This document shows positions 26,423-50,164 of a stretch of DNA of 64,000 nt, piece by piece. Positions within the stretch are counted from its first letter, which is position 1. Each line of letters opens with the position of its first letter. Made by a program: the position numbers and the translations under genes. Under the pieces are notes generated by a model that searched no databases, was not told the DNA's origin, and worked only from the letters and a program-made list of their open reading frames with translations. The stretch spans positions 186,001 to 250,000 of the forward strand of contig NZ_SJPQ01000004.1 of NCBI RefSeq assembly GCF_007859945.1, written 5' to 3'. Source of the stretch: Pseudobythopirellula maris (GTDB lineage: Bacteria; Planctomycetota; Planctomycetia; Pirellulales; Lacipirellulaceae).

Positions 26423-26496
26423 GGGCGATTAGCTCAGTTGGTTAGAGCACTGTGTTCACACCGCAGGGGTCAGAGGTTCGAGTCCTCTATCGCCCA
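26423..26496 (+). tRNA. tRNA-Val (anticodon CAC)
   Basis: A 74-nt cloverleaf folds fully. Acceptor GGGCGAT pairs with ATCGCCC, D-arm GCTC with GAGC, anticodon stem CTGTG with CGCAG around TTCACAC (anticodon CAC, Val), and T-arm AGAGG with CCTCT around TTCGAGT. Discriminator A; CCA not encoded. Its 3' part is the left attachment site of the genomic island, and the integrase reading frame runs into it from the right. Confidence 0.97.
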
Positions 26497-27726
26497 CTCC
26501 TTCACTTGCAAGCAGTTGCATCAGATCGCTAAGCACTGCTTTTCCAGGGGAATCCTGATCAGGCTTCAGCCCGGTGCAACCGCTTGCAGGCAGACTCTGC
26601 AGCGCATTTGCAGCGCTTTTCGACGTGGCCGCTTCGAAGTGATCGTCGGTCACTTGCCAGTAGTGGCCCTTCGCGACCTTTACGCTGTGACCGAGCCAGG
26701 CCGCGGCGACGTGCCCGGGGAACTCGTCGGCCAGCTCGGTCGCCCTTGTCGCCCTCAGGTTCTGGAACAGCTTCGGCCACGGTGTCAGCCCGGCCCGCGC
26801 CACGATCTTGCCGAACCTCGTTCGTAGGTTGGAGGCGTTGTCACGGGTGCGAGTGATAACGTACTCGGCGCCCGTCTGGGCCGCTTCGAACGCTTCGGCG
26901 AGCACAGGCTCGAGTTCCGGGAATAGCGGCACGATCCGCGTGCCGAGGCCATCGTGGTGCTCGGTCTTCACGCAGGTCACCACAAGCCGGCTCTTGTCCC
27001 ACAGCACGTCAGCCCATCGCAGAGCTAGAACCTCGGAGGGGCAGGCAGGCCGCCATAGCGGGCCAGTGCAAAGATCAGCCGCCACTCGAGCGACGGGCAG
27101 GCGTCCATGACCTTCGCGGCTTCGGCCCGTGTGATGAAATACTGACGGTCGCGCACCTCGATCGTCGTGGCTGGCAGCTTGGCGAACGGGTTCACCTCGA
27201 TCAGCTCGTGTTCGATCGCCGCGTTGAACAGCTTCTTCGCGTTGGCGGTCCACTTGCGGACCGTGTTTTCGGCGCGATCGGCCGCGATAGAAACCCGCCA
27301 CGCCTTCGCCTCGCCACGTGTGATCGACCGCAGCGGCCTGCCCTCGCCGAAGTAGGCCCGCAGGCTTTTGTGCGTCGATTCCGACGCGGCGATCGTGCTG
27401 GCCCTGATCTTGGTGTCGGCTTTCCGAGAGGTCGTCCAGGCGTCGATAAATGCCCCCAGCGTGCCTTCAGCACGATTCTCGACGAGACCGACTCGCGACA
27501 GCTTGGCGAACATCCGTTCGCCACAGGTGGACAGCCAGCGGCTCGTCTCGGCGTCTGGCGCCGTTCCGGCCAGCTGCGACGAGACCAAGCGTTCAACGCG
27601 TATACGGACCGCCTCGGCGTCCCGCTTGGGAAGCTTGCCGAGGATGATGGTTCGTCGTCTTCGGTCTCGGTCTTCGAACTGGATCGAGTACGACCCCGTA
27701 CTCCGACGTTTCGAAAGGCTTGCCAT
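26456..27726 (-). pseudogene. Tyrosine-type integrase of the island, apparent 1-nt frameshift
   Basis: The N-terminal part (27726 to about 27045) opens MASLSKRRSTGSYSIQF and holds an AP2/SAM-like core-binding domain. The catalytic part continues in another frame with CPSEVLALRW (catalytic Arg), VVTCVKTEHHDG (Lys), FQNLRATRATEL (box II Arg; the usual His is Gln), AAWLGHS and HYWQVTDDHF (nucleophile Tyr). One missing base near 27044-27048 would restore GGLRCPSEVL. The C-terminus GDRGLEPLTPAV is encoded across attL into the tRNA-Val gene, on the opposite strand, and stops at 26456. Restored length is about 423 aa. Either inactivated or an assembly indel. Confidence 0.85.
26474..26503. repeat. 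attL: left 30-bp attachment site in tRNA-Val
   Basis: The sequence starting AGGTTCGAGTCCTCTATCG and ending CACTCCTTC is repeated exactly at 50135-50164. It covers the T-arm, acceptor 3' strand and discriminator of tRNA-Val plus 7 further bases, the standard target of tyrosine integrases. Confidence 0.92.
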
Positions 27727-27856
27727 GAGTTCTCGAGAAATGATGGAGATCGAAATGGGGGCTGTCTAAGCGTTCTTGGCTCTGATCGTTAAATGCCGTT
27801 TCAGAAGCACTTTTCTACTTGTGATTCTAAGGAATGATGCTTCGACATCGAAGCTA

Positions 27857-28138
27857 TTATTCCGACCCTAGCCAGCAATCGACCAGCGCGAACTCAGATT
27901 CCAGCGGTCTTGAATGGCAAGAGCCGCAGGAGGGGCAGGAGCCGCGGTTTGCGTGGAAGGCGTCGATCACGCCGCGGGCGTAGAAACGCAGTTGGCGGCG
28001 CTCCCGCTGAACGTGCTCAGTCGACAATAGTGGCCTGATAGCGCGGTCGAAGTAGGAGATGCGCACATCGAGCACCGCGGCCATCTGAGCCTTTGTGAGC
28101 CATGCTTGGGGGCGCTTGGGCTTGTGCGGGGCGGCCAT
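27857..28138 (-). CDS. Small putative DNA-binding protein next to the integrase
   Basis: A 93-aa basic protein. Its first half (AWLTKAQMAAVLDVRISYFDRAIRPLL) looks like a helix-turn-helix of the kind in phage packaging or excisionase-type regulators. The second half has FYARGVIDAFHANR and a possible zinc site (CPSCGSCH, then Cys near the end). It lies upstream of the integrase on the same strand, the usual position of an excisionase or integrase regulator. Family assignment is tentative. Confidence 0.55.
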   Translation of the reverse strand: MAAPHKPKRPQAWLTKAQMAAVLDVRISYFDRAIRPLLSTEHVQRERRQLRFYARGVIDAFHANRGSCPSCGSCHSRPLESEFALVDCWLGSE

Positions 28139-28269
28139 CCCTGGCTCCTACCTGTGTCGGCGCGTTTACTTACTTACTTTTTTACCAAGGCAGGCATAAA
28201 AGTCATTCGATTGCGGGCGAAGCCCACCCCACGGGGGCCCCCGAAAGGACCCCGACCCCCCGGGGGGGG

Positions 28270-31200
28270 TCAGCTATGGTTGGTCGCAAGCCTCCCGTCC
28301 GTGTCGCAAATCTGCTCGCGTTTGACCATAGACTGTAGTACGTACTCAATTCGATCACGCAGCCCTGAACTGATACGACCGATGCCGAACACCCGCGCCG
28401 TAGCGCTGACGACTTCCGAATGGCTCATCCCCACATGGCTGCTTACCAGCCGAACTATTGCCTCCTCGATCTCCATGTGGGAGATCATCTCAGGCTTCTT
28501 CAGAGTGAGGAGGCCAGTCTCGGATCGGTCGCGAACTACCTTGCAATCAGAACCACACATCACAAAGAAATCGCCGATCGACTCCAAGCCCCCGTGGCTG
28601 ACTGCGAGCCCCAAAGCTCCTTCAATGGCTTCAACGATACGCCTCCCGGCACGGGCGGATCCCCAAAGCTGTGCGATACGCCTATAGACTTCTTCGCGGT
28701 GGATTGGACCCTCGACGCGCACCACCTGAACTACCGCCCTTTCGAGATGATCGATCGGCGTGTCTGGGATCGTCGCGTTGCGGTTCACGTCGAAAGACGC
28801 TACCTCGTAGGGGGCGCCGATCAAGAGATCCTCCCCCCCAATCGTCTCAGGTTCTTCACGTCTCAAAATCGGGGGGGGCGGCGCCGGTGACGACACCGAG
28901 GGCGGATCAGCTACTTTCTCCGGCGTGGGCGCAGCCTGAGCCTGTTCGATCGCCGCTACGACTCGGCGCAGTTCTTGGTCCGGTTGGCTGAACCAATCAG
29001 AGCTCCAGATGCGATGGATTCGCCAGCCTCGCGCCTCCAGCACGGATTGGCGGATCCTGTCACGGTCACGGGCCGAGCGCGAGCTGTGGTAAGCCGCGCC
29101 ATCGCACTCGATTCCCAGCAAGTACCGACCCGGCTGAGAAGGATCCACGACCGATAGATCGATGCGGAACCCGGCAACTCCCACCTGGGCGTGGGTCTCG
29201 TAGCCAAGCCCGCGTAACGCTTTCGCCACCTGCCGTTCAAATTCTGAATCGTGCTCCGCTTTCACCGCTGGAGAGCCCGTATCAAGCATTCCCGTCTCGG
29301 CGTATTGCAGATACGCCTTGAAGGCTATTGCTCCGCGTGCTTGCGTGCGGCTCGTGTCGATGTCGCTTGCTCTGATCGATGAGAAGATCACGCAGCGGCT
29401 CCGAGCGCGTGTGATCAGCACGTTGAGACGTCGCTCGCCGCCGTCGCTGTTGAGCGGTCCGAAACTCATCGACATGTACCCGTCTTTGTCTTTGCCGTAG
29501 CCGACGGAGATATAGATGACCTCCCGCTCGTCGCCCTGGATGTTCTCTAGGTTCTTGACAAAGAATGGCTCGTCCTTCCCCTCGGTGAAGAATTCTTCGG
29601 CTTGCGGGTTCGCCTTGCGCAGCAGCTCCAATTCTTGCAAGATCGCGTCACGCTGGCTCATAGAGAAGGCGCCCACCCCTAGGCTCACGCCAGGGGTCTT
29701 CAGCGCGTGCTCGATCGCCGCCTCGGCGATCCGCTTGGCTTCGATACGGTTCGCCCGCGTGCCGCCGCGGTCGTAAACGGCCTCTGGTATATGAAAAAAC
29801 TTTAGCCCCAACGAATCATCTGGTTCGCATGGGCTAGGGACGATAATAAGCCGATCGTCATAAAACTCGTGGTTCGAGAACTCAATCAGCGAGTGGTGCC
29901 GGCTGCGGTAGTGCCACTCGAGCATCCGCTGCGTGACGTTCTTCGCGCAGCACATCGAGAGGATGCTCTCGATGTCCTTCGCTCGCACCGCGTCGTCGTC
30001 TTCCGACTCCGGCTCGCCGTCTTGAGTCGCACGGGCGAAGAACGACGTGGGCGGCAGCTGCTTGGTGTCGCCCACGACCACCACTTGCTTCGCACGGGCC
30101 ATGGCGCCGAAGGCGTCGACCGGTTCGACCTGACTCGCCTCGTCGATCAGCAGCAGGTCGAACTCCATCTCGCCGGGCGGGAGGTACTGCGCGATCGACA
30201 TCGGGCTCATCATGAAGACCGGCTTGGCCTTCTGGATCGCTCGCCCCGCCTTGCCCATCAAGGTGCGCACGCGCAGGTGCCTGCTCTTCTTGTTGATCTC
30301 ACGGTTGACGACCGCCATTTCGCCGAGTGAGCTCCTCGGCGTGTTCTCCCAGTGCACTTTAGCGACGAGCGATCGGCAATGCGCCAGACGCTCCTTGTCG
30401 AATCCGACGAACGCCTCACGCACACGCTCGTGCGATTCGCCCGAGAAAGAAGCGAGTGCGGGATGCTCGGTGTAGGCAAGTCGCATCAATGACTCGTAAA
30501 GCGCAAGCTCGACGCCGGACCTCAGCTCGTCGACGCCGATGGCCCCCGAATCGAGTTGTGTCAGCGCCTCATCCACGCCTCGACCCGCCAGCGAGCGGCA
30601 ACGGGTCCGGTAGCCGATCCAGTCCTTTAGCCCGTCGCGATCGCCCAGAAAGCCCGTCATCCGACGATGCAGATCATGTAGCGGGGCATCGACCGCTTGC
30701 CTTCCTAATTGGTCGACCGTGGAGAAACACAGCGTCTTCTCGAGCTTCCCGAGGCATTTGAAGCATGGGTTGAGGTCTTTGCCGATCTCCTGAAGGCAGC
30801 GCCGCAGCGTGGCGGAGTCGGGCGAGTGCTTGGCGACTTCCGTCAACGAGTGAGTCGGGAACTTCTCCCGGCAGACTTTCACTGCTTCGATCGCCTGGGC
30901 CAGGGCGCCCCAGTCTGTTTCCGCACCACGCCAGCCCGTCGAAAGCGCCTGCTTGCCCAGCTCCTCCGTGGCGTTTGACGAGAAGCACTCGACATCTGCT
31001 TGATGTTCGATCAGCAGGTTGAGAAACTCGAGTTGCTCCGCATGACTTCTCGGCGGGGCGCCGATCGAGATGGCGCGGAGCTTCGCCGACGCCGCACGGT
31101 AACGCCCCACAAAGCCTCGGTACCAGCGGTCGCCGTAGACCTTGATCGCCTCGCGGGCCTCACGGACGTCGGCGTTGTAGCTGTGCGGATCGAGCAACGG

Positions 31201-33063
31201 CTCGAGACGTTCCGCGGCGACCGACGACCGCAGACCCCGGTTGCAGGTCTCTTCGAGCTCCGCGAGCCGATTTGTCCAGGCGTCACAGTCCAGCAGGCAC
31301 AGCTGCGCACGGGGGATCGTGCTGACGGCTTTGGCGAACTGGGCCAGATCGGACAGCTCGCGGGCGTTGCGGGGCGGCTGGGCGCCAAGCGCTTGGGCGA
31401 GCTCCGCGCCGGCGGAGATAAGCCGATCTATTCTCTCCGCGACTTCTTTGATCTCAATCTCGAAGCGGTCCATGTCGGTAGGCAGCAGCGCCTCGAGTTC
31501 GCAACCGCGCCACGGGTGTTCGCACGGCGTGCCGATCTTTCGGGCGTGGTCGGCGAGGTCGGCTACCCGGTCGATCAAGTCCTTGATCTCGTCACCCGAC
31601 AAATGCTCGCAACCGGTCAGATGCAGGTCACGCCCGCGGACGCCCTCGGCCTGCAAGCGAGTAATCTCACCGATCAGGTTGAACGGAGAGAGGCCGCTGT
31701 CGCCGATCGGCGCGCTGATCGCCTTCACGTGGCCGTTCAGGGTGTCCACACGCTGCTGTAGCGAGTGGACGAGGGCGCCGGCGTCTTCGAGATGCGGCGC
31801 GCTGAGCTTGAGCGTGCGGTCGAGTTCCTGGAGCAACTGCTTGCGGTTCGCCTTGTTGCTGTGCAGTTCGAGGCACATGTCCCCCAGGCCGATATTCGCC
31901 AGCCGGCGGTGCACGACCTCCAGCGCGGCCATCTTCTCGGCGACGAACAGCACGCTCTTCCCCTCGTGCACGGCCGCGGCGATCATGTTGGCGATCGTTT
32001 GCGACTTGCCCGTGCCGGGCGGGCCTTGCACCACGAGGTTGCGGCCGCGGCGGACCTCTTCGATCACCATCGCCTGCGAGCTGTCGGCGTCGATCACGTG
32101 CACCGCGTCGTCGACCGACACGAGGTCGTCGATCAGCTCCGTGGGGTCCTCGAACAACGGCGGTTCGTCGCGGAATCCTTCGCCCAGCAGCGAGCGGATC
32201 AGCGGGTTCTCGCTCAGCTTTTTGCCCTTGGGCCAGGCTTCCTGCTTGAGGTCCATGAACATGCGGATCTTCGAGAAGACGAACATCCACAGGACCATGT
32301 CGTTGGCCTGAACCCGCCAGCCCTCCTTGCCCTCGATCGCCTCGGCGACCGACGCGAAGTAACCCGAGGGCGTCAGGTCCTCGAGCGACTCGGGAAGCTC
32401 GGGCAGCTCCACGCCGAAGTCGCCCTTCAGTCGCTCCTGCAGCGAGAGGTTGGTCGTCAGCTCCTCGCCGTTGTAACTCAAGCGGAATCGCGCGCCCGCC
32501 TTCGCGCGGCGCAATTCCACCGGCAGCAGCAGCAACGGCGCGTGCCGCTCGGCGCCGTTCGGGCCGCTCTCACGCCACACCAGAAAGCCGATCGCCAGGT
32601 AGAGGACGTGCACGCCCTGCTCCTCGGCAAAGGTCTTGGTGTCGTAGTGCAGCTTCAGGAGCCGTTTCTCGAGCGCCTCGCCGTCTAGCAGCGTCTGCAA
32701 GCGGTTGTCGGTGTGGCGGTCGGGCGCCGACTCGGCGGCCGCGTCGGTCTGGAGCAACACGTCGCTGTCCATGGCGCCGCCGTCGTCGACCCACGTGTCG
32801 ACCTCGCCGGTTGCCTCGATGGCCGTATCGCCGTCGCCCGGGTCCGAGACCAGCGGGCTGGCCTCGTCGTCGTCCGAGGCAAGGAAGGTCATCGTCTTCC
32901 CCTGGATAGCCAAGAGGTCGAAGACCTGATCGGCCAGCTCGTCGACCACCTCCACGCGCGTGCTACGCGTCGGCGATCGGGGGGTGTTCAGCAGACGGTT
33001 GCGGGCCGAGAGGTCGAGGAGCTCGCGACGCGACTCCTCCAGCATCGTTTCCAGGTCCGGCAT
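28270..33063 (-). CDS. Very large SF1 helicase with C-terminal Vsr-like nuclease (DUF4011/DUF3320-type)
   Basis: A 1597-aa protein. The N-terminal domain (LEESRRELLDLSARNRLLN) is the DUF4011 signature. Walker A GPPGTGKSQTIANMI lies near residue 348. Walker B LLLIDEASQVEPVDAFG lies near 972, followed by GDTKQLPPTSFF, an UvrD/Dna2-like helicase order, and RRLNVLITRARSR (motif VI) near 1240. Residues about 1315-1360 (GIECDGAAYHSSRSARDRDR, then RGWRIHRIWSSDWF) are a Vsr/MTES-type endonuclease fold. The last 180 residues resemble DUF3320. Such helicase-nuclease fusions are common in defence islands, so antiviral defence is inferred. A GACCCCCC/GGGGGGTC palindrome overlaps the stop. Confidence 0.88.
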   Translation of the reverse strand: MPDLETMLEESRRELLDLSARNRLLNTPRSPTRSTRVEVVDELADQVFDLLAIQGKTMTFLASDDDEASPLVSDPGDGDTAIEATGEVDTWVDDGGAMDSDVLLQTDAAAESAPDRHTDNRLQTLLDGEALEKRLLKLHYDTKTFAEEQGVHVLYLAIGFLVWRESGPNGAERHAPLLLLPVELRRAKAGARFRLSYNGEELTTNLSLQERLKGDFGVELPELPESLEDLTPSGYFASVAEAIEGKEGWRVQANDMVLWMFVFSKIRMFMDLKQEAWPKGKKLSENPLIRSLLGEGFRDEPPLFEDPTELIDDLVSVDDAVHVIDADSSQAMVIEEVRRGRNLVVQGPPGTGKSQTIANMIAAAVHEGKSVLFVAEKMAALEVVHRRLANIGLGDMCLELHSNKANRKQLLQELDRTLKLSAPHLEDAGALVHSLQQRVDTLNGHVKAISAPIGDSGLSPFNLIGEITRLQAEGVRGRDLHLTGCEHLSGDEIKDLIDRVADLADHARKIGTPCEHPWRGCELEALLPTDMDRFEIEIKEVAERIDRLISAGAELAQALGAQPPRNARELSDLAQFAKAVSTIPRAQLCLLDCDAWTNRLAELEETCNRGLRSSVAAERLEPLLDPHSYNADVREAREAIKVYGDRWYRGFVGRYRAASAKLRAISIGAPPRSHAEQLEFLNLLIEHQADVECFSSNATEELGKQALSTGWRGAETDWGALAQAIEAVKVCREKFPTHSLTEVAKHSPDSATLRRCLQEIGKDLNPCFKCLGKLEKTLCFSTVDQLGRQAVDAPLHDLHRRMTGFLGDRDGLKDWIGYRTRCRSLAGRGVDEALTQLDSGAIGVDELRSGVELALYESLMRLAYTEHPALASFSGESHERVREAFVGFDKERLAHCRSLVAKVHWENTPRSSLGEMAVVNREINKKSRHLRVRTLMGKAGRAIQKAKPVFMMSPMSIAQYLPPGEMEFDLLLIDEASQVEPVDAFGAMARAKQVVVVGDTKQLPPTSFFARATQDGEPESEDDDAVRAKDIESILSMCCAKNVTQRMLEWHYRSRHHSLIEFSNHEFYDDRLIIVPSPCEPDDSLGLKFFHIPEAVYDRGGTRANRIEAKRIAEAAIEHALKTPGVSLGVGAFSMSQRDAILQELELLRKANPQAEEFFTEGKDEPFFVKNLENIQGDEREVIYISVGYGKDKDGYMSMSFGPLNSDGGERRLNVLITRARSRCVIFSSIRASDIDTSRTQARGAIAFKAYLQYAETGMLDTGSPAVKAEHDSEFERQVAKALRGLGYETHAQVGVAGFRIDLSVVDPSQPGRYLLGIECDGAAYHSSRSARDRDRIRQSVLEARGWRIHRIWSSDWFSQPDQELRRVVAAIEQAQAAPTPEKVADPPSVSSPAPPPPILRREEPETIGGEDLLIGAPYEVASFDVNRNATIPDTPIDHLERAVVQVVRVEGPIHREEVYRRIAQLWGSARAGRRIVEAIEGALGLAVSHGGLESIGDFFVMCGSDCKVVRDRSETGLLTLKKPEMISHMEIEEAIVRLVSSHVGMSHSEVVSATARVFGIGRISSGLRDRIEYVLQSMVKREQICDTDGRLATNHS

Positions 33064-33207: not shown

Positions 33208-36200
33208 TCAAACCGCTACGAACCGACCATCGTCCAGCCGCCGCGCGCGGCCGAGGCTTGCCAAGGTCTCGAGCAGCTCGCCGATGCGGTCCTTGTTCGC
33301 CCGGGTGAAGGCGGCGGCGACGGTCTTCACGTCGGCCGGGGCGGCGATCGCGGCGAGCGCCCCCTGCACGGCCGCCGCCTGCTCGCTGAGCGTCTTGGGC
33401 CACGGCTGCTTCTTGACCTTCGCCTTGCCCTTCTTGGTGGGCTTGGCCTTGGTCTCCTCGGTGGCGATCGTCTGCTGCGTCTTGCCGTCCGGGTTCTGCC
33501 CCTTGGGGTTCTGGAACTCGGGCCGCAGCCAGCGCACCAGCCCGCGTTTCTCCTCCTCGGCGCGCTCGTGGTTGAGCGCGACGAGCCGCTCCAAGATCTC
33601 TTCGTCGGGCAGATCAACCGGCCAGCCGTAAGCGTCGGCCACCGCCGTGTCCAAGTCGTCGTGGATCTGCTTGAGCACCGAGACGAGCCCCTGCTCGTGG
33701 ATCACGCGTTCCTTGTCCGTGAGCTCCTCGCCGCCGCGGAGCTTCTCCAGCACGTTGTACATGCCGGTCATCGTCAGCTTCGGGTGCTGCTCTTGCTGAC
33801 GCTTGCGGTGGGCGTCGAGCTGCTCGCCGAGCTCGCGAATGCGGGATTGCTGAGGCTCACTCGCAATCGGGAAAGGAAAGGGTTCAAAGCAGCGTGTTTT
33901 ATTGTATCGAGGATCATTACCAACACCCAATCGTCCACCAGCAGCCAATGCCCACTGATAATGGATGCGGCTTGAGAGAACACCGAGAACAGCGGAATCA
34001 GATACCGCAATATTCGTCAGCATATTATCTGGCAGAACATCCTGATCCAAAAATGAGAAGACCCTGTGTTTCGATGTTTCAGGTGTAGCGACAAATCTGC
34101 TTACACCCGCAGATGCGTCTCTCCAGACGGGTCTTTCCCAGCCAAATCGCCACCATTTTTCACGTATCGAGGCTCGGCGATTCTGGTCTCGCTCAGGCTT
34201 GACATAGTCAATCACCCTCTGAAACGCGGCGGAATTAGCACGCTTCGCCTCTTCTACAGACATGCCAAAGAAGTCGATCACGTAAACTCCACGCGAAGAC
34301 TGCATGAAGTCACGGCCATTGAGGTACGCTCTTATTACTACATGTTCACCTGCCGTCTGAGCTCGCAGTTCAGCAGCTTGGCTAGCGTCGACAATAAAGC
34401 CTGCTCCGTAGAGCTGCACGCCCGGAGAATAAAGCCCGTCGTTTGCCTTTAAAGGGACTGCCGAATCAAGGTCCGGGCCGGCTTTTAGTTGATGATTGAT
34501 TTTCTCAACTTCAATCAGCTTGACTTCCACCTCTTCTTGCTTGTCCTCATTGACGACGCAGCCGATTTCATATTTTGCTGGCTCTTCTGCGGCTCCTATC
34601 GTCATCGCAATTCGTACCGCAGCAGCAGTTGAAGTATCCACCCACGGATGGTCAGCAATCACGAATGGTACAAAGAGTGGGGTGCTCTTGGCCTCCATGT
34701 GACGCTGCAGAATGCGCCGTTGGAAGACCTGCCTAATACTGTTCGTAGTGATGAATCCGAAGCGTTGTAGCTTTCCTTCGCGGGTAAGAGCAGCGGCTTT
34801 ATCCCACCAGTACATCACGTAGTCTGCCTTCTCAGGTAGATCGTGAACGCTCCAGAGCGCTTCGACGTAGCCATCTCCGTTGGCCTGCCGGATCATCCAA
34901 CCGCCAATAAACGGCGGGTTCCCCACCACATAATCTGCCGCAGGCCACTCCGCCTTGCGTGGGTTCACGTAGCGGTACATCGGGATCCGCACCGACTCGT
35001 CCGGCACCTCCTCGCCGGTGACCGGGTGGGGCTTGGTGGTGCGGCCATCCCAGATCGTGACCGGCTCGCCGTTGTCGCCCAGCACTTCTTCGCGGCCGTC
35101 GTAGGCGGCACCGCGTCGCGGCACTCGATGTTGCCAAAATTCTTGATCACCGGCTCCGGCGGCCGCACCTTGCCGCGCGTGCGGAAGTGCCACTGCAGGT
35201 AGCCGATCCAGAGGACCAGTTCGGCGATCGCCGCGGCGCGCGGGTTGAGCTCGATCCCCAACAACTGGTGCGGGTCGACCGTGTGGCCGCTCTCGAGCAG
35301 CATCTGCCGGCCGCCGGCCACCTCGTCGCAGGCAGCGAACACCTCGCCCTCGAGCCGCTTGAGGTGCTCGAGCACGACGTACAAGAAGTTGCCGCTGCCG
35401 CAGGCCGGGTCGAGCACCCGCACCTCGCAGAGCCGGTCGTGGAATCGGTTCAGCTCCTTGAGGGCGCCCGACTCGTCGCCGTCGTCGAGCAGCGTGAGGG
35501 CGGCGGCCAGGGCGGCGTCCCACTCGGCCCGCAACGGTTCGACCACCGTGGGAACGACCAGCCGCTCGACGTAGGCCCGCGGCGTGTAGTGGGCGCCCAG
35601 CTTGTGCCGCTCGACCGGGTCGAGGGCCCTTTCGAGCAGCGTGCCGAAGATGGCGGGCTCGACATCGCTCCAGTTCGCCTCGGCTGCTTCGATCAGCAGT
35701 TCGAGCTGGTCGCGGTCGAGCGGCAGGGCGGCCTGGGACTCGAACAGCCCGCCGTTGAACCGGATCAGTTTTTCGCGCAAGTCGGTCGAGAACCCGCCCT
35801 TGTCCATCGTTTGCCACAGCGACTCGACCACCGGCACGAAGTGCGCGGGGTCGTCGAGAGACTTGAGCAGCGTGGTGAACGGGTCGCGGCGCTCTTGGCT
35901 CGGCTTCTCCTGCAGCAAGCCGACGTCCTCGGCGAACATGGTGAACAGGCACCGCATGAGGAACTGGGCGACCTCCTCGGGCGCGTGTCCCGCCGCCTCG
36001 AGCCGCTTGGCGAGCTTGGCCAGGCTGTCGGCGATCTCGCGCGTGACCTTCGCGCTGCGACGCGACGGGTCGAGCGCCAGCGGGTCAGTCCAGACGAGAC
36101 GCAACCGCTCGCGCGTCTCGGCCTCGGCCAGGTCCTCCAGCGCGATCTTGTGCGACTGCGGGTCGGGGAACGCCACGTAGGCGCCGCCGGTCTGGCTGAA

Positions 36201-36722
36201 CTCGCTGTAGAGCTCGATCACGTGGCCGACGTCGACGACCATCAAGAGCGGCGGGCGGCCCTCGTCGGCGCTGAGGTGGCGGGCGTATTGCTCGGCCTGG
36301 GTGTGCGCCTGGCGCAGCGCCTTGTCGTGCGCCTTGCTGCCGCGGCGGCCGTGGCCCTGTTTCTTGGCGGCCTGCTTCTGCTTGCCGCGCTCGGAGAGGG
36401 CCGCGTCGTCGCCGCGCTCTTCGACCCCTTGCTTGGTCTCGCAAACGAAGCAGCCCCGCCGGTAAAGGTCGGCGAACTTCGTCGAGTGCGTGCCGTCGTA
36501 GTTGTCGAACCGGATCGCCTTCTCGAAGACGTAGGCGTTCTCGGCGCCGTCCGGCCCGGCCGGCTCGGGGTGGTCCACGCCAAGCAGGTCGCACAGCTCG
36601 GTGAGGAACAGCTGGTAGTTGGCCCGCTCGGCCCCGCCCGAGGGGCGCCAGCGGGCGATGAACTCGCGCGCCTGGGCATCGGCTTTGGCTTCTTCGGGGT
36701 CGTTGTCAGTCGGTTGCGGCAT
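33208..36722 (-). pseudogene. MmeI-like type IIL restriction-modification enzyme, apparent 1-nt frameshift
   Basis: A single-chain endonuclease-methyltransferase of about 1171 aa once joined. Residues 1-200 form the MmeI-type N-terminal nuclease with [17 protein letters not shown] (D..ExK site). The methyltransferase has motif [14 protein letters not shown] near 437 and motif IV YVVGNPPFIGG near 600. The target-recognition and C-terminal domains follow (RCFEPFPFP, then the helical tail). The frame breaks near 35106-35111 after NIECRDAV and resumes at [10 protein letters not shown]; one lost base explains it. The segment from about 33850 to 34930 is much AT-richer than the flanks. It is divergent from the DUF4268 gene. 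Confidence 0.85.
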
Positions 36723-39707: not shown

Positions 39708-39801
39708 GGATCGACTCACTGCACGGAGTAAGAATCGCAGCCGCGTTCACGCGGTCGCATCGTGCAGCAGGTTAGCCAGCAATCGATGTGGACAAAGTGG
39801 A

Positions 39802-41307: not shown

Positions 41308-41525
41308 CAACAGGAACCGACGGATGCACGCGACGCCAGTAACACATGGGGCCTCGGGGGGCGAAGTGGGCACGCGCGAGATTCCTTTCCGCGGGCCCGA
41401 CCACCCCGTCGCCGCCCGGAAAGGGGCACGGCGACGGGGGAGTCGACGCGGGAGATCAGCCCGCTGGCCTGCTGATCGAGAGTGAAGCGGAACCAGTCGT
41501 ACTAGGCAGCGACGCCGCCATTGTA

Positions 41526-44500
41526 CTATCTCGCTGCGATAAAGTCCCTGCACTCTCCCACGACATCAAGCCAGTCTTCTTCATCTGCGAACGCTTCATC
41601 GCTGGTCGCTTCGGGATTGATAAGTTCGGAGTCGGTGCTACGGTACCGAACATGCCGCTCTACCAGTAACAGGAGAAGATTGTCGGTGGCCGATTCCGGC
41701 GATAGCGTACTATCGAGTCTGGTTGATGGGGTGGGATCGTGTTCGGGGAGCGAAGTGCGTTCGCGGACGCCTACCTGAAGCTTGTGATACCTTCTTGATG
41801 CAGAGGTTTTGTTTGGCTTGTCCGCCTGAAAATCTTCATCTGGAGCTCGCAAGGTGACAACGGCATCATTCTCCTTAATGGGCAGCTGCGCCTGCGTGAT
41901 TCGAGGATATTCGGGAGAGAGCATGCTGTCACCCGCTTGAACATCAGCGGCAAAGGCTTCGTCAACTCCTGCTACCTCGTTGAAGTAACCTTGTGCCTGA
42001 GTGACTTGTAGAGGGGAAGAAAGTGTTTCGCCGAAATGCTCAGTCCATACGGTGTAGTCGTTTCTGGTAATCACCCCGTCGCCGTCCCCGTCGGCGCCCT
42101 CGTAGGGCGCCACCATCTCGTCAAGCGCGTCTCGCCAGACGGTGAAATCGGCGCCGTCGACCACGCCGTTGCCGTTGTAGTCGCCAATGAGTGGTGGGGC
42201 GTCGGCCTGGATCTCGATCGCCCCGATGTCGACGCCTCCTCCCGCCAAGCGGAAGTACCCCATGCCCCGCTGGTCGAACTCGCCGTGAGCGAATTCGACC
42301 GTAGGATCGCCGGCGTCGATCGCAGGGCTGCCTGGAAGTGGCAGATGAGTCGGCGTGGGGCCGCCGTTGTCGGCAAGGGGAGCGAGCATCGGGTCGTCAG
42401 CGATAACGTTGTCTTCACCAAGAGAAACGATTTCGTCCGTCCGCGAGCCGATCAGGCTGTGACGGATTTCCAGCGAGTTGGGGCCTTCGTCGTCGAGGAA
42501 GACTTCATAGCTCGGGTTTGCAGCAAGGTTGGCGGTCAGAATCGATCCTACGACAAGGATTTCGCCCGACGCATAAAGACCTGCCCCTAAGCTCGACGAG
42601 TTAAAGGTCACCGTGCTGTTGGTCAATCGTGTGTACCCCGATGACCAGATCGCCCCCCCTCGTGTCGAGCGTGAGGGCTCTCCCTTGTTTCCACTGAATG
42701 TGCTCTGCTCAACCACCAGTCGATTGGCCGAGTAGACGCCAGCCCCGAACACGGAGGTGTTATTACCGATGAGGCTCTCCGTAATTAAAGCGGACTCATA
42801 CACATACATCCCGCCCCCGCGACTCGAGGCCGTGTTCTTTTGGATCAAGCTGCGAGCGACCTCGGCGTTGCGAGCTCGCAATCCAGCCCCGGAATAAGAG
42901 GCGTTGCCGAGGATCTCGCTCTGATCAACAAAGACAAATTGTGAATATACACCTCCGCCGCTCGTTGCTGAGGTATTGTGTGTGATGCTGCTCTTTCTCA
43001 CCGTTACCGACGGGGCGAGAATTCCCCCGCCGAACCCACCAATTTCATTGGGGGCGTGGTTCCTTTGAATCGAGCTTTCCGTAATTACAACGGGGCCTTC
43101 CGCGAAAACCCCACCGCCACTTGTGTATACCCCCTCGACCTCGCTGTCGGAAACGACAGATCGAGTGATGATGAGCTTGCCCGAAGTGATCGATCGGATA
43201 GCGCCGCCATTGTAGATGTAGGAGGGCGGGGGGGATGGAGGGTCCCAGTGAGGGTTGTCGCCGGTCGTGAGACCGTTCTGTATGCGGAGGTTGACGATCG
43301 AAAAATCTCCGGTACTCGCAGTGAAGTGCAGCACGCGCGAGAGCCGCTCCGCGTCTATCGTCACTCCTTCGTTCGCCATCGAGGCGTCGAGTGTCGCCGC
43401 CTCGGTCAGCTCGAGTTCGGCGCCGCCAAGCAAGATCGTGCCTCCAGCGAGAGAAGGGTCAAATCCGATCGTGTCGGCGCCCGGATTGAGGTTCGCCAAC
43501 GCGATTGCCTCTCGCAGGGAGAGATGGCCGGGAGAGACATCGCCATCGGAGCCGCCATCGAGGCTGTCGACGACGATGTTGCCAACCCACTCGATCGCAC
43601 CAAGGTCAATGCGCTCACCCCACACACGAGGCAAGCCCGCTCCGCGCTGATCGCTCGCAAGCGGGGGGGTAGAAATCTGGGGGTCAAACAAGGGGTCACC
43701 GGCGTCGATGATGGGGCTGCTGGTGAGCGGCAGGTGGGTGGCGGTCGGCCCGCCATTGTCGGCCAGTGGGCCGAGAAGGGGATCGATCGCCCCGACCGTG
43801 CTAGAGTCACCAATCAAGTTGCCGGACGCATCGGGCGAATCGGATGAAGCCTGCAGCAGGCCGTCGGTGTCGCCAATGAAACTGTATTGCACCGTGGTCA
43901 CGAGCGCGTCGGAATCAAGATCGGGCGCCCCGCCTGTCGCGGTGTTCTTCGCCAGGATCGAACCCGAAATCTCAACCGTCCCGTCGGCACTGAGCCCTCC
44001 CCCCCGGACCCCCGTGAACAGGGCATGGTTGTTGACGACCGTCGATTGGGCCAGAGTGATCGCGCCTGTCGCGGAGACGCCACCGCCACTCGACTCCGCC
44101 CCGTGCGTCAGACTGCCGCTGACGGTGCTCTGGAGCAGGTTCACCTCGCTGGCCGCGATCGCGCCTCCGGGGCTTTCGCCCCCGAGGGTGGTGTTGTCAC
44201 GGAACAGCGTGTCTCGACCCGAGAGCCGACCCTCCGTAAAAACGGCGCCACCCGCACTATGGTCGCCCCGCGTGGTGTTCCAGCCGATCGTCGCTGTGGA
44301 GAACGTGGCGTCCCCACCGACAAACACCCCACCACCAGGCGAGGAGACACCAAGTGTTGTGTTTCTCTCGACGCCGCCGCGCTCAATAACGAGTCCTCCC
44401 CTGACGTATAGCCCGCCGCCAGGCGAAAAGCGTTCCTCAGTGCGGTTGTCAAGCACCCAAGAGTTTTGGAGCAAGGCGTCGCCGAAAACGAAGGCGCCTC

Positions 44501-47500
44501 CGCCGCTCCCACTGCCCCCGCTGGTGTAGTTCCTTTCAAGGATGCTGTCGGTGAGGGTGAGCTGCCCCCTGACATATAAACCACCCCCTGAAGCATGAGG
44601 CCCTTCCGTGTGATTGCCGCTCACAACACTGTCGGCTAATTCTAGGTCGCCCTTGGTGTCGATAGCCCCGCCACGGGCGTAGCCGCCTATCGCTGTGTTG
44701 TCCGTGAGCACTACTTGGCTGAGAAACAGCATTCCTTCAGAGCCGGAGATGATCGCGCCGCCCTGGCTCTCGTAAGAGCCGTAGTAGAAATCCGTCTCCG
44801 TTCTGCCGCCACGCAGTTTCAGACTCTTGAGTGTGACGTTGTCCGCTCCTGCGGAGATCTCGAAAATCCGCGACAGACCTTGGGCGTCGATTTGCACCCT
44901 CGCGTCAAGAGCCGAGCTGTCGATCGTGATCGTTTCCGTAAGAGTCAGCGCCTCGCCGTCGAGTAGGATCGTACGTCCCGACAAAGCCTCATCGAAGAGG
45001 ATCAGGTCGTTCCCGGGTCTGGCGTTGGCGATCTCGAGCGCCTCGCGCAGCGACAGGTTCCCCGATGAATAATCGCCGTCCGTCTCGTCGATCTGATTGT
45101 CGACGTAGAGCGACAACGCCTCGAAGGCGCCGATGTCGATCCTCCGGCCCGAGACACGCTCGAACGGCTCGCCGCGCTGGTCGTAGCCCTCGTCGTCCGT
45201 GTCTAGGTCGCCGGCCTCAATGGCGGGGCTGCCCGGCAAGATCGCGTGAGTCTGGTTCCGGCCCCCGTTGTCGGCGAGCGGCCCCAGCATGGGATCGATC
45301 ACGCCGCTCCCGGCGGAGCTGCCGATGAGGTTGCCGTTCTCGTCGGGGGTGCGTGTCTCGGCAAGGGTCGTGCCGGCGTTGTCGCCGATCAAGCTGAATA
45401 CGATGTTGGGGGAGGAGCTGCTGTGTAAATCGGGCGATGCGAATAAGGATGAGTTGCCAGCCACGATCGAGCCCTGGATTTGCGTCGGGAACCAGCCTTC
45501 CCACACTCCACCGCCGCTGCTGGCGGAGTTGCCTGTGATCGTGCTCTGTTCGATCGTAAGCCTGTCATACACTTGGTGGACGCCGGTACGAAACAGTCCG
45601 CCGCCGCGCGAATCCTCGCCTTCTGTATGATTCCCACTGATTGTGCTGTTGTAGATCGACCCTGGGCCATACACGCCGATCCCACCGCCCTTGCCTTGGG
45701 GGCCTTCGATGTGATTGCCTGAGATGAGGCTGTCAGAGACGGTCAGGTCAAAAGAAAAAAGTCCGGCGCCGGTCATCTTTTCTCCGGTAAGGCTATTGCC
45801 TTCGATCGTTGAGCCGGTCACCTCGAGACTGCGTCCGAATACCCCGCCACCGTGTCCATAGAGTCCGTTGACGTAGTTGTCGCTGACGACGCTTTCGGTC
45901 AATATAACGTCCTCTCCGTACACGCCGCCGCCGTTGTCGTAATAGCTGTTACCCCGTACCGAATTGGAATCGATAGTACTTGCGTGGATCGTCAGCAGTT
46001 TATATCCGACGACTCCTCCTCCCTGTGCGCTACTGCCAGAGATGTAGTTGTAATTAACCTTGCTGCTTACGATGCGCACGTTCCCACTCTTGGACCCAAC
46101 GCCGCCGCCGTGCGCTCGAAAGCCCTCGGTGTGGTTGTGCTCGATCGTGCTGTTCTCGATCGATAGGTCGCCGGCCTCGGTCCACGCTGCGCCGCCCGGC
46201 GAATCCTGTCCCACGGTCGTGTTCCCGGTGAGCAGACTGTCGATGATCCGCAAGCCGCCTTCGGTGTAGACGCCCCCGCCCGGCGCCTCGCGTCCCGTCG
46301 TGCCGCTGTTTTGAATCGTCATCCGCTCTAAGGTCAGAATTCCGCTCGAAGCCGAGATGATAGCGCCGCCGCCGCCGCTTCTGGTCGCCCGCCCCCCGGT
46401 GAGCACTAGGCCCGCGAGCGTGTAATCGTTCGAATCGTCCAAGAACTCGAATATTCTCGATTCCCCGTGGGCGTCGATGGTCAGGGGCTCGGCGAGTGCT
46501 GTGCCGTCGATCGTCACGGTGTCCGAGATGTGGAATTCATTATAGATGAGTGAGATGGTCTGCCCGGCGAGCTCGGGGGAGAATACGATCGTGTCGGCGC
46601 CAGGGTTGGCTTCCGCGATGGCCGCCGCTTCACGCAGCGACAGACGCCCCACCGAGAAGTCGCCATCGACCGCATCCTCGGTCGTGTCGACCACTAACGA
46701 GAGGGCCTGCGACTCGTAAGCCCCCATGTCAATTCGGCCCTCGGCGACACGATCGAACGGATAGCCCCTGACGTCGAGGACGACGTCAGAGGTCTCCGGC
46801 TCGCCGGCATTGATCGCTACGCTGCCGGGCAGTAGCGCGTGCGTGAGCGTGCGTCCACCATAGTCCCCCAACGGAGCAACCCCCGCGTCGAGTGTCCCCG
46901 ACGTGGTGAACAGGTTCCCTTGCCCGCTAGCCAACGCGATGAGCAGGGCGTTGTCCGGTCCGCTGGGGCCGTTCGCGTCGGCGACTAGGCTGTATCTCAG
47001 CGAGAACGATCCCGCCGCCGGCTCGAGGTCGTTGCCCCCGCCAGTTGCTGTGTTCCCGGCCACGATCGAGCCCTCGACCGAGAGCCCCTCGCCAGAAAAC
47101 CAGATTCCTCCTCCGGAGGCGCCGGCGGCTTGATTTTCTGACAGGGTGCTGCGGACGATCTCGAGATTGCCGTGCGCAGCAATCGCCCCGCCGTTGCTGC
47201 TCAGCCCCTCGGTCTTGTTGCCGCTAAGAGTCGATTGCACGAGACGCACGTCTCCGGTCGCGAAGATCGCTCCCCCCTGCGCGCCGTGCCCCTGGGTCCG
47301 GTTCCAGCTGATCAAACTCCCTTCAATCGTCAAAAGGCCGTCGCTCAAGGACCGAATCGCGCCGCCGCTGTTCGTGTAATCAAAGATCGTCGGGTTATTC
47401 TCTACGGTCCGGCCGCCCGTGAGATCGACGCCGACCAGCGTAACGTCTCCCGCCTCGGCGGTGATGCTCAAGACCCGAGATTGACCACGGGCGTCGATCT

Positions 47501-49604
47501 CCACGTTGCGAAGCAGATTGCTCGCGTCGACGATCAGCGGCGCGCTGATTTCCAACTCGCCTTTGGTCAGTAGAATAGTCCGCCCAGCAAAAGTGGGGCT
47601 GAACTGGATCCTCGCGACTTCCAGGGACTCGTTCGCCAGGAAGATTGCCTCCCGCAGCGACAAGTCACCCTCTCGGTAGTTGCCGTCGAATTCGTCGGTG
47701 CTCCTGTCGACCGTGTAAGTCGTGAAGTACCTCTCGACCGCGCCGATGTCGGCCCTGCCCACCGTCACGCGCGGGAATGGCTCGCCTCGCTGGTCGTAGC
47801 CGCTGTCTGACAAGATCGCCGGGTCACCCGCGTTGAAAGCGGGGCTGCCGTTCAGCAGGTCGTGGGTGCGAGTGGGCCCTCCGTTGTCGCCCAACGGCGC
47901 CAGGCGCGGGTCGAGCACACCGGCGCCTGCCGAGCTGCCCACGAGGTTGCCCGCCGCGTCCGGTGTGCTCGACTCGGCGAGGTTCACCCCGTCATTGTCG
48001 CCGATCAGGTTGAAAGCATAGACCGATGCGCTGTTAGTGGAACGTATGTCGGCGTACCGGTCGGCGGCGAGGTTGGCCGCGATGATCGTGTTGGTGATCA
48101 CCGCTTTCTCGCTGTTGATCGCCAAACCGCCCGCGTCCGAATCGTCGCCTAGCGCCTCGTTCTCCGTGATAGTGCTGCGGTCAATCCGTATCTCGCTGGA
48201 ATTGCGGAGATCGAAATAGCCGGCACCCCCCGGACTTCTTGGACCGCTGGTGCGGTTGTTGCTGAGCGTGCTGTCGATGATCTGAACCGAGCCGACCACG
48301 ACCATGAGACCGCCTCCGACTCCCCCCCCGCCGGCGGTTGTATTATCGCTGATCTCGGAACTGTCAATGACAACCGACCGCGTATAAGCCCCGCCGCCCC
48401 CAGAGTTTCTCCCCAAGGTCGTGTTGCCGCGCAATACGCTCGCATGCAACACAAACTCTCCCTCGACGTAGACGCCGCCACCGCGGGCGCTCTCGCCGCG
48501 GGTCTCGTTGTACGAAATCTCGCTGCTGTACGCCTCGACCGGTGCGTCCAAGGACCACACACCACCTCCGCTGGCGCCGATCCCTTCGGTGTGATTCCGC
48601 GAGACGAGCGTCTCCTCAAGAACAATTGTCGGAGACCCGAGACCACGCGCTGCAATGCCTCCCCCGCGCGAGTCCGTACTGAGGGTGTAGTTGTCCGTCA
48701 CGGTCGAATCAACGAATGTAACAGCTCCGTAGAATGTGAATATACCGCCGCCGTTGGACGAATCGCCTTCGGTGTAATTGCCACTTATCGAGCTCCGCGT
48801 GATCGACGTCGTACTGGACGCGTAGACCCCGCCGCCGCGCGCTTCCATTCCCTCGGTGTGATTGCCACTGATCGTGCTGTCTTCAATCTCGAAGGCGCCG
48901 AACCGCGAGTACACCCCTCCGCCCTTGCTTTCATCGCCCGTGGTCGAGTTGCCACGGATCTCGCTCCTCACCACTCGCGTACCGCCCAAGCTGAAGACGC
49001 CGCCGCCGCCGCCGGTGGCCTTGCTATCGACAACCGCCGTATCTTCGAGAATGAGCTCAGCCGAAGGGGAATAGATCGCGCCACCAGGGCCGTCCACGGC
49101 GCCGTTGGCGAGTTCCAAGCCGGCGACGCGAAGATAAGCGTCGGCCTGGATTACCCGCGAAAGCCCTCCTGCGTCGATCACCGGTCGCTCATCGAGCGCC
49201 GTCGCGTCGATGACCAGCGCGTCGGTGCTCTCCAGCTGGGCGCCTGCCAGGGCAATTGTCTGTCCCGAGAGAGACAAGTCGAAGCCGATCACGTCTTCAC
49301 CCTCGGTCGCGTTGGCGGCGAGGATCGCCTCACGCAACGAGACACCGTCTCCACCGTCAGTAGCGATTAAGCCTTCGATCGAGCTGACATCGCCATTCAC
49401 CAAGTCGCTCGTGTTTCCCACGGTGACGGCGGCGAGAACCCAACGCTCTTCGAGGCGTTCGTACCGGAGCCGACGGCCTAAGAACGGACGTTTGGCTGAC
49501 GTTCGAGATGTTTGGTGCTTCCCACATTGTCGGCGAGATGGATTCTTCGGGGAAAATAGCATGAGGTATTGCTCAGGGATGTAGGAGCCCAACGCGGAGG
49601 GCAC
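41526..49604 (-). CDS. Giant five-module beta-helix surface protein with dockerin
   Basis: A 2692-aa exported protein. The N-terminus has a basic leader and the planctomycete RYERLEERWVLAA signature. Five modules follow, each opening with a CSLREA-type element (SLREAILAAN, SLREAIFLAN, SLREAAAIAE, SLREALEIAN, SLREAIALAN near residues 90, 650, 990, 1520, 2030). Each continues through short right-handed beta-helix rungs (S-x-I-S-G-N-x-T, GGGVY/GGAI) and closes with a choice-of-anchor block (PLADNGGPTxTHLP, SPAIDAGDP, DQRG, IDIGAIE). A dockerin pair lies near 2473 (GDYNGNGVVDGADFTVWRD), then about 180 residues of unknown type. Probably an adhesin or polysaccharide-binding surface protein. The start could also be the ATG at 49562. 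Confidence 0.88.
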   Translation of the reverse strand: MPSALGSYIPEQYLMLFSPKNPSRRQCGKHQTSRTSAKRPFLGRRLRYERLEERWVLAAVTVGNTSDLVNGDVSSIEGLIATDGGDGVSLREAILAANATEGEDVIGFDLSLSGQTIALAGAQLESTDALVIDATALDERPVIDAGGLSRVIQADAYLRVAGLELANGAVDGPGGAIYSPSAELILEDTAVVDSKATGGGGGVFSLGGTRVVRSEIRGNSTTGDESKGGGVYSRFGAFEIEDSTISGNHTEGMEARGGGVYASSTTSITRSSISGNYTEGDSSNGGGIFTFYGAVTFVDSTVTDNYTLSTDSRGGGIAARGLGSPTIVLEETLVSRNHTEGIGASGGGVWSLDAPVEAYSSEISYNETRGESARGGGVYVEGEFVLHASVLRGNTTLGRNSGGGGAYTRSVVIDSSEISDNTTAGGGGVGGGLMVVVGSVQIIDSTLSNNRTSGPRSPGGAGYFDLRNSSEIRIDRSTITENEALGDDSDAGGLAINSEKAVITNTIIAANLAADRYADIRSTNSASVYAFNLIGDNDGVNLAESSTPDAAGNLVGSSAGAGVLDPRLAPLGDNGGPTRTHDLLNGSPAFNAGDPAILSDSGYDQRGEPFPRVTVGRADIGAVERYFTTYTVDRSTDEFDGNYREGDLSLREAIFLANESLEVARIQFSPTFAGRTILLTKGELEISAPLIVDASNLLRNVEIDARGQSRVLSITAEAGDVTLVGVDLTGGRTVENNPTIFDYTNSGGAIRSLSDGLLTIEGSLISWNRTQGHGAQGGAIFATGDVRLVQSTLSGNKTEGLSSNGGAIAAHGNLEIVRSTLSENQAAGASGGGIWFSGEGLSVEGSIVAGNTATGGGNDLEPAAGSFSLRYSLVADANGPSGPDNALLIALASGQGNLFTTSGTLDAGVAPLGDYGGRTLTHALLPGSVAINAGEPETSDVVLDVRGYPFDRVAEGRIDMGAYESQALSLVVDTTEDAVDGDFSVGRLSLREAAAIAEANPGADTIVFSPELAGQTISLIYNEFHISDTVTIDGTALAEPLTIDAHGESRIFEFLDDSNDYTLAGLVLTGGRATRSGGGGAIISASSGILTLERMTIQNSGTTGREAPGGGVYTEGGLRIIDSLLTGNTTVGQDSPGGAAWTEAGDLSIENSTIEHNHTEGFRAHGGGVGSKSGNVRIVSSKVNYNYISGSSAQGGGVVGYKLLTIHASTIDSNSVRGNSYYDNGGGVYGEDVILTESVVSDNYVNGLYGHGGGVFGRSLEVTGSTIEGNSLTGEKMTGAGLFSFDLTVSDSLISGNHIEGPQGKGGGIGVYGPGSIYNSTISGNHTEGEDSRGGGLFRTGVHQVYDRLTIEQSTITGNSASSGGGVWEGWFPTQIQGSIVAGNSSLFASPDLHSSSSPNIVFSLIGDNAGTTLAETRTPDENGNLIGSSAGSGVIDPMLGPLADNGGRNQTHAILPGSPAIEAGDLDTDDEGYDQRGEPFERVSGRRIDIGAFEALSLYVDNQIDETDGDYSSGNLSLREALEIANARPGNDLILFDEALSGRTILLDGEALTLTETITIDSSALDARVQIDAQGLSRIFEISAGADNVTLKSLKLRGGRTETDFYYGSYESQGGAIISGSEGMLFLSQVVLTDNTAIGGYARGGAIDTKGDLELADSVVSGNHTEGPHASGGGLYVRGQLTLTDSILERNYTSGGSGSGGGAFVFGDALLQNSWVLDNRTEERFSPGGGLYVRGGLVIERGGVERNTTLGVSSPGGGVFVGGDATFSTATIGWNTTRGDHSAGGAVFTEGRLSGRDTLFRDNTTLGGESPGGAIAASEVNLLQSTVSGSLTHGAESSGGGVSATGAITLAQSTVVNNHALFTGVRGGGLSADGTVEISGSILAKNTATGGAPDLDSDALVTTVQYSFIGDTDGLLQASSDSPDASGNLIGDSSTVGAIDPLLGPLADNGGPTATHLPLTSSPIIDAGDPLFDPQISTPPLASDQRGAGLPRVWGERIDLGAIEWVGNIVVDSLDGGSDGDVSPGHLSLREAIALANLNPGADTIGFDPSLAGGTILLGGAELELTEAATLDASMANEGVTIDAERLSRVLHFTASTGDFSIVNLRIQNGLTTGDNPHWDPPSPPPSYIYNGGAIRSITSGKLIITRSVVSDSEVEGVYTSGGGVFAEGPVVITESSIQRNHAPNEIGGFGGGILAPSVTVRKSSITHNTSATSGGGVYSQFVFVDQSEILGNASYSGAGLRARNAEVARSLIQKNTASSRGGGMYVYESALITESLIGNNTSVFGAGVYSANRLVVEQSTFSGNKGEPSRSTRGGAIWSSGYTRLTNSTVTFNSSSLGAGLYASGEILVVGSILTANLAANPSYEVFLDDEGPNSLEIRHSLIGSRTDEIVSLGEDNVIADDPMLAPLADNGGPTPTHLPLPGSPAIDAGDPTVEFAHGEFDQRGMGYFRLAGGGVDIGAIEIQADAPPLIGDYNGNGVVDGADFTVWRDALDEMVAPYEGADGDGDGVITRNDYTVWTEHFGETLSSPLQVTQAQGYFNEVAGVDEAFAADVQAGDSMLSPEYPRITQAQLPIKENDAVVTLRAPDEDFQADKPNKTSASRRYHKLQVGVRERTSLPEHDPTPSTRLDSTLSPESATDNLLLLLVERHVRYRSTDSELINPEATSDEAFADEEDWLDVVGECRDFIAAR

Positions 49605-50134
49605 AGTCTAGACCTTTCAGGCAAATTGAACGACCTCGACACGCCATCAAAGAATCTGGGCGGCAACGCGAAATCGCCCTAAGCGGGCAGTGCAAGGACA
49701 GCCTGAATAGGGTATTTCCAGCCAGATTTGATCTCCACGTTCCTAGCCGCGAAGAACAAATCCCTCAGGCCGTCGAATGCCCCTACCGCGAGAGATGCGG
49801 CATTCGAGCAAGTGACAAACATCAACGCGCAGGAAGGCGGCGAGCGCGCCTTCTTCGCCAGCGGCAAGAATGGGAAAGCAGACGAGCGTCACACACACGA
49901 GGATCCCATTGAGAGGCCGGCACCCCGTCAAGTCAAGGAAGGAAAAGGTACGTAGGGAAGCCGATTCGAGTTAGCTTTGCGAATCGAGTGATTACCAGCG
50001 AGGCACCCTAAGACCTGTTCTTCCCTTGCAGGATCTTCCTACCGCGTTGTCTGCTACACGTCTTGCGCCGCTCGGTGCAGCGCATCACGCAGCGCTTCGG
50101 CTAGAATCTGCCTAAACACCGAGGATTCCGTGGT
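49605..50134. other. Right end of the island, no gene seen
   Basis: These 530 bases lie between the start of the giant gene and attR. Short open frames exist on both strands but lack protein character and ribosome sites. The promoter of the giant gene should be here. Confidence 0.5.
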
Positions 50135-50164
50135 AGGTTCGAGTCCTCTATCGCCCACTCCTTC
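50135..50164. repeat. attR: right 30-bp attachment site
   Basis: An exact copy of 26474-26503 (tRNA-Val 3' end plus 7 bases). No tRNA 5' part precedes it, so it is the displaced copy generated by site-specific integration. Confidence 0.92.

Follow-up and report, generated by a model that had tools for sequence, protein, structure and literature searches.

The 23.7-kb island analysed here is very probably an integrative element of a tyrosine recombinase at tRNA-Val(CAC), with an integrase from a family of planctomycete enzymes whose genes contain the attachment core, so that the tail of the enzyme is swapped on integration. It lies in a window, the whole stretch of DNA that was analysed, of 64,000 nucleotides from Pseudobythopirellula maris (contig NZ_SJPQ01000004.1). 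The island alone would be ordinary. A first-pass annotation of the same DNA described a complete island, and that reading missed the most interesting feature, which is the att core inside the integrase gene.

Tyrosine recombinases must tell integration from excision. In the mechanism proposed here, a tyrosine recombinase would insert the element at the 3' end of tRNA-Val(CAC). In the circular element, the integrase gene is predicted to read through the core into a C-terminal tail encoded by the element. Integration would cut the gene at the core, so that the stretch coding for the tail stays behind at the far end, and the antisense strand of the tRNA would supply the integrated gene with its last few codons and its stop. 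Excision would restore the tail. C-terminal recombinase tails dock between subunits, and this tail may alter the behaviour of the integrase, perhaps favouring integration from the circle and then stability. The enzyme would be full-length when made from the circle and tRNA-tailed when made from the chromosome, and the two forms would be expected to differ in activity. A broader proposition is that elements across the phylum Planctomycetota carry an integrase that senses the free and the integrated state through its own gene, with a conserved two-helix module that is present only in the circle and gives way to tRNA-encoded residues on integration, so that direction would not depend on an excisionase alone, with any tRNA as target. 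To this we give an even chance.

Attachment sites and bounds of the element

The first-pass annotation proposed a perfect 30-bp direct repeat around some 23.7 kb, with the 3' end of tRNA-Val as the left copy. Both copies were recovered as exact and identical sequences, and the repeat period is 23,661 bp. The left core consists of the last 24 nt of tRNA-Val(CAC) and 6 bp beyond it. The features that define the element and its integrase are as follows.

26423..26497, + strand: tRNA-Val(CAC), the integration target, with the anticodon-loop TCA at 26456-26458
26474..26503, + strand: left 30-bp att core (attL side)
50135..50164, + strand: right 30-bp att core (attR side)
27025..27726, - strand: integrase N-terminal part, an ORF of 233 aa with 66% identity to residues 1-231 of the intact integrase of a relative (G015)
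26456..27301, - strand: integrase C-terminal part, read in a different frame and sharing 67% identity with residues 228-419 of the same G015 integrase
50054..50134, - strand: severed alternative integrase end, 26 codons and a stop, in the integrase frame across the core (TTESSVFRQILAEALRDALHRAAQDV)

A matching 30-bp repeat arose in none of 100 dinucleotide shuffles, and a third copy is absent from the window with up to 3 mismatches allowed. The 22-bp tRNA part has two occurrences at up to 2 mismatches in the genome assembly (6 contigs, 5.07 Mb, 96.5% complete), both of them within the window. The segment is bracketed by a tRNA gene and a 3' fragment of it in the same orientation, as expected of a tDNA-integrated island; the integrase inside, which is intact in such islands, is here divided over two frames. 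That the segment is an att-bounded insertion into tRNA-Val, at the 3' end of the gene, is well supported.

The region to the right of attR (50165-56400) is low in GC. A fragment of a further integrase (50577-50963) lies there, alongside an HTH_17 protein (50896-51138) and ORFs of Sel1/TPR-like type. The region probably represents the remains of a second element.

The tRNA-Val locus in relatives

Relatives were sought in 59 genomes, none of them congeneric with the window genome. Neither an empty site nor a circular form of the element was seen, which counts against the main reading. A cyclase-like gene (23705-25537 in the window) is followed by tRNA-Val(CAC) in all nine relatives in which the locus was examined, and the sequence downstream of the tRNA is variable. 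When the regions of 17 relatives were scanned for repeats after tRNA-Val (the tRNA was not found in three of them), other repeat-bounded segments were seen in G006 (6.3 kb), G028 (4.0 kb) and G002 (11.1 kb). The tRNA-Val(CAC) gene beside the cyclase-like gene thus appears to be an insertion hotspot. The corresponding loci are L021 (G002), L062-L064 (G006) and L073 (G028), and the last keeps only a 93-aa integrase remnant and the tail module described below. G015 and G032 have an integrase of the same family at tRNA-Val, without a second repeat within the stretch examined.

The ORFs downstream of the tRNA were compared with those of eight relatives (15-20 kb per relative, ORFs of at least 90 aa, E<=1e-12, this locus only) in place of a translated nucleotide comparison, which was too noisy. 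Only G015 shares an island protein, its integrase, and the interior is therefore accessory at this locus, in agreement with the earlier annotation, for which an interior of conserved core genes would have spoken against an island. At another target, the tRNA-Lys element of G027 was compared with the congener G014: the tRNA-Leu/tRNA-Lys pair is common to both, and the right flank of the element is not shared by G014 within 17.7 kb.

The integrase gene of the window

The left att core, read on the minus strand, encodes the integrase residues EGVGDRGLEP. In the integrated state the core is followed by LTPAV, and the frame ends inside tRNA-Val as GVGDRGLEPLTPAV and a stop, the TGA being the antisense of the anticodon-loop TCA (26456-26458).

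As sequenced, the integrase is frameshifted near 27.03 kb, and a second frameshift is found near 35.1 kb in an MmeI-like gene; the first-pass annotation had overlooked both. The claim of a complete island therefore stands for the bounds and fails for these two genes. The intact homologue at the same tRNA in G015 has 419 aa, and programmed frameshifting of the window integrase was set aside for that reason. Long flanking genes have open frames, among them those for glucose-6-phosphate dehydrogenase, 6-phosphogluconate dehydrogenase and methionine synthase (1271 aa), so a general sequencing error is not evident. The two frameshifted sites are either pseudogenes or local sequence errors, and the island looks immobilised or mis-sequenced. 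Because its integrase is frameshifted, the window copy is probably not self-mobile, barring sequencing error.

A flanking 366-aa ORF (4158-5258) matches the PfkB model at positions 235-294 of 302, in the C-terminal fifth only, and is either a divergent kinase or a further broken gene. Outside the window, the same genome has a second relative of the integrase (C4:295436-296536), 38% identical and in a 473-aa open frame.

Cargo genes

The remaining genes of the island are these.

27857..28138, - strand: 93-aa ORF beside the integrase, possible DNA-binding protein, without family match
28270..33063, - strand: 1597-aa protein with DUF4011, superfamily-1 helicase, MTES_1575 nuclease and DUF3320
33208..35952, - strand: MmeI-like enzyme, C-terminal part in another frame, with the methylase end and target-recognition domain (33208-35130 scanned)
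34965..36722, - strand: MmeI-like type IIG restriction-modification enzyme, N-terminal part
37036..38052, + strand: DUF4268 protein (PADLOC PDC-S11, 410 bits)
38178..38726, - strand: 182-aa ORF without family match
38850..39311, - strand: winged-helix-type protein (38850-39218 scanned)
39507..39719, - strand: excisionase-family HTH protein (TIGR01764, 35.2 bits at a cut-off of 28.8; PF12728)
39802..41553, - strand: 583-aa ORF without family match
41526..49604, - strand: 2692-aa protein with right-handed beta-helix stretches

All the genes named in the first-pass annotation (integrase, excisionase-type, helicase-nuclease, MmeI-like, DUF4268 and giant surface protein) are present, and the 2692-aa beta-helix protein is likely a surface protein. 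The 1597-aa protein has long matches to the ProA, Hhe and PDC-S37 models of anti-phage helicase-nucleases. The PADLOC PDC-S37 match spans nearly its whole length. Against NCBIfam ProA (NF058533) it scores 1474.4 bits, just below the curated cut-off of 1500, with a match that begins at profile position 357; against Hhe it scores 1105.4 bits, well below the cut-off of 2000. The N, helicase-spacer, methylase and target-recognition domains of MmeI are all present, split over the two frames. Three putative anti-phage-type genes (helicase-nuclease, MmeI-like and DUF4268/PDC-S11) are thus supported by PADLOC and NCBIfam models, which bears out the earlier description of the cargo as defence-like. Among the 12 island ORFs scanned, there was no Pfam match to conjugation or virion families.

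The cargo of related elements was surveyed in 94 ORFs, each 180 aa or longer, taken from 13 further att-bounded elements. Among the top families listed (25 of 264 for PADLOC and 25 of 57 for Pfam) are type I restriction-modification subunits, double-GTPase proteins and DUF3987/AAA_25 proteins, a pattern that the defence-type cargo of the window fits. Cas9 was matched by two of the 94 ORFs and Cas1 by one, and CRISPR-Cas II systems may ride on such tRNA elements. Among the bounded elements L074-L109, the ORF sizes suggest L080:7584-10964 and L097:8008-11133 as the Cas9 carriers.

The att core within the integrase gene across the family

The position of the core within the integrase reading frame is found both in the window and in the family. 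A collection of bacterial and archaeal genomes gave 590 named loci, of which the best 80 were compared; by their record titles, 77 belong to planctomycete lineages, two are given as 'bacterium' and one as 'Actinomycetes'. The stop codon of the integrase lies inside an antisense host tRNA gene at 61 of the 80 loci. The 19 loci without such a stop, a proportion measured in this integrase family alone, comprise eight with a tRNA nearby and no stop inside it, three with a T-arm motif and no tRNA, four with neither, three that run off the contig, and L196. The last was flagged as a fused integrase-tail and was not counted as such because its end lacks the motif. A search at the level of the order gave a similar picture, with 20 of 30 homologue loci ending inside an antisense tRNA as judged from coordinates; the two samples overlap in part. 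The targets among the 80 loci include tRNAs for Val, Glu, Leu, Met, Asn, Lys, Ile, Ala, Arg, Tyr and Gln. Searches of plasmid, phage and viral collections brought up no relative of either the integrase or the joined form.

Three residues, R228, K254 and Y356 of the integrase P0001, are invariant and lie upstream of the core-equivalent peptide at residue 407. We take them to be the catalytic residues. The core would then lie about 50 residues past the catalytic tyrosine, so that the integrated form should retain the catalytic domain.

Chromosomal integrase ORFs of the phylum (L156-L235) often end in tRNA-derived residues, for example GLEPVTSAV, and their apparent C termini therefore reflect the target tRNA.

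The severed tail at the other end of the element

The far ends were studied in 45 sequences, consisting of 40 integrase regions (L074-L113) and five regions at tRNA-Val (the window, G006, G028, G032 and G015). A convincing att pair was found in 16. Of the 40 integrase regions, 27 had no accepted pair in the fetched stretch, and eight were shorter than planned (from less than 6 kb to 11 kb) owing to contig ends or chosen bounds. A 15-bp match in L105 and two of three repeats in L100 were dropped since they are not at a tRNA 3' end.

The open tails past the right core in the integrase frame are 9-70 codons long in the 16 elements, with a median of 59.5, and the median in the other two minus-strand frames of the same right ends is 16. 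When the tails were compared pairwise, 41 of 120 pairs in the integrase frame scored at least 40. The mean was 0.18 such pairs (maximum 2) in 200 shuffles, and 5-17 pairs were obtained in each of the five other frames, a control that shares DNA similarity with the integrase frame. A common tail module is present at ten of the 16 right ends, and in all ten it is in the integrase frame; these elements thus encode an alternative C terminus for the integrase, in the same frame, at their other end.

A model built from 21 orphan tails, that is, copies of the module away from the 16 elements, matched exactly those ten right ends, and no other stretch of the 206,364 bases left of them scored above 15 bits. 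None of the 21 tails comes from the 16 elements, but they were found with a model of the ten elements' tails, and the test reduces circularity to that extent. The consensus of 22 orphan copies is SGAESGAVGA, a short spacer and DPDLxAVVxAWPxLPEAxRAGILAMV, with a mean column identity of 52%. Six of the 16 bounded elements lack the module, and among the 27 regions without an accepted att pair it was found in one only (L077); both observations count against the main reading.

The window itself shows the arrangement without the conserved module. Its tail (TTESSVFRQILAEALRDALHRAAQDV) follows the core at the severed end, where the remaining minus-strand frames stay open for only 7 and 11 codons. This 26-codon tail is unlike the module, and the loci compared yielded no convincing homologue of it beyond its own genome.

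Orphan tails and joined reading frames

The module is widespread, with matches in 183 of 396 sampled genomes of the order (E<=0.001) and, in a sample of the whole phylum, in 59 of 392 genomes (E<=1e-6). One orphan module is present in the window's own genome, outside the window (C4:171936-172061). A T-arm motif was found upstream of 24 of the 30 top-ranked orphan tails, always 50-63 nt away. It was also found upstream of 17 of 20 mid-ranked tails, hand-picked at intervals down the ranked list, at 50-66 nt in 12 and at 80-117 nt in five; random windows from the loci analysed contained the motif in 187 of 4000 cases. ARAGORN detected an intact tRNA at none of the 30 top-ranked orphan-tail loci.

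Natural ORFs that join the catalytic part of the integrase, a GLEP-like core and the module were found at two (G042 and G079) of 11 loci chosen for long open frames, and nine had none. The integrase part of both joined ORFs is without its N-terminal portion, a point counted against the main reading. The two ORFs look like the predicted form of the circle or like a junction between elements that lie side by side.

The joined ORF of G042 was modelled in three dimensions with a mean pLDDT of 70 and a pTM of 0.48. Residue 143 is presumably the catalytic tyrosine, from the recombinase signature, and the core peptide starts at residue 222. The module is modelled as two helices (residues 264-271 and 278-300) preceded by a linker (233-258) with pLDDT below 50. 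A fold search with the joined model ranked only weak matches to tyrosine recombinases first (best E 5e-3) and was uninformative for the tail.

Alternative explanations

One alternative is that the read-through into the tRNA is passive: attP lies near the 3' end of the gene, no stop intervenes, and the tail has no role. The T-arm is near-universal and would make antisense tails alike whatever their role, and the six elements with short or unrelated tails, the window included, would also fit. What makes this explanation unlikely is the piece at the right end, which is conserved as protein in the integrase frame in ten of 16 elements and recurs as a module in 59 of 392 phylum genomes with 52% mean column identity over 22 copies. 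An orphan tail might also be a separate small gene, for instance that of a directionality factor, which abuts attR by chance. The tail ORFs are indeed short open frames of their own, many of which reach upstream of the core, but we consider this explanation highly improbable. The frame of the tail agrees with that of the integrase across the core in ten of ten cases, the T-arm spacing is 50-63 nt in the 24 top-ranked copies with the motif and similar in most mid-ranked ones, and natural ORFs join integrase, core and tail.

A further explanation concerns the window alone and is compatible with the main reading, namely that the 24-kb region is an old immobile island and the repeat a leftover. 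This is quite possible, at somewhat below an even chance. The frameshifts in the integrase and the MmeI-like gene point to it, as does the fragment of a second integrase just outside attR. Against it, the two 30-bp cores are still identical, and the 1597-aa and 2692-aa ORFs of the island and flanking genes such as methionine synthase are open, from which it follows that decay is not general. For the family as a whole, the preferred reading remains an integrase whose tail is exchanged at the core. The att repeats, the core inside the frame, the conservation of the module in frame and the natural joined copies can all be read from the sequences.

Implications

If the proposed exchange is real, the DNA rearrangement itself would edit the recombinase, and this control would be directly testable in bacteria. 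It would extend the mechanism of phage Mx8, with a conserved, removable module and numerous natural variants at a range of tRNA genes. An orphan AWP tail next to a tRNA fragment is a practical marker for the far end of a planctomycete island. The ends of chromosomal integrase ORFs in these elements are tRNA residues, foreign to the enzyme's own gene.

Comparison with known systems

No report of integrase tail switching in planctomycetes was found in the open-licence literature, where the cases found were those of phage, archaea and mycobacteriophages. In layout, the island resembles the Islander class, with a tDNA, a displaced tDNA fragment and the integrase between them (PMC4383910). It differs from that class in that its integrase is frameshifted.

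SSV-type archaeal integrases have their recombination site inside the integrase gene (PMC8371274). They are split into N and C parts with the catalytic domain in the C part. The planctomycete integrases differ from this suicidal type, in which integration separates the catalytic domain, since their catalytic residues precede the core.

In BPs-type mycobacteriophages, attP also lies within a gene and the C termini of the free and integrated forms differ (PMC8092301, PMC4557955). There the gene in question codes for the repressor, and an ssrA-like tag is often part of what is lost. In the planctomycetes, by contrast, it codes for the integrase, and what is lost is predicted to be a helical module.

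The closest parallel is phage Mx8. According to a review, attP is there within the integrase coding sequence and integration gives a new 3' end, by which the integrase is altered in specificity and not inactivated; this was termed a molecular switch (PMC6070905). The Islander paper likewise describes the Mx8 and SSV integrases as extending across attP (PMC4383910). The planctomycete elements share with Mx8 an attP inside int and a new end of the gene upon integration. Unlike Mx8, they form a family of planctomycete elements with many tRNA targets and a conserved tail module, and no phage genes were found in the window element. A removable integrase module that occurs across the phylum is a new form of the Mx8 principle.
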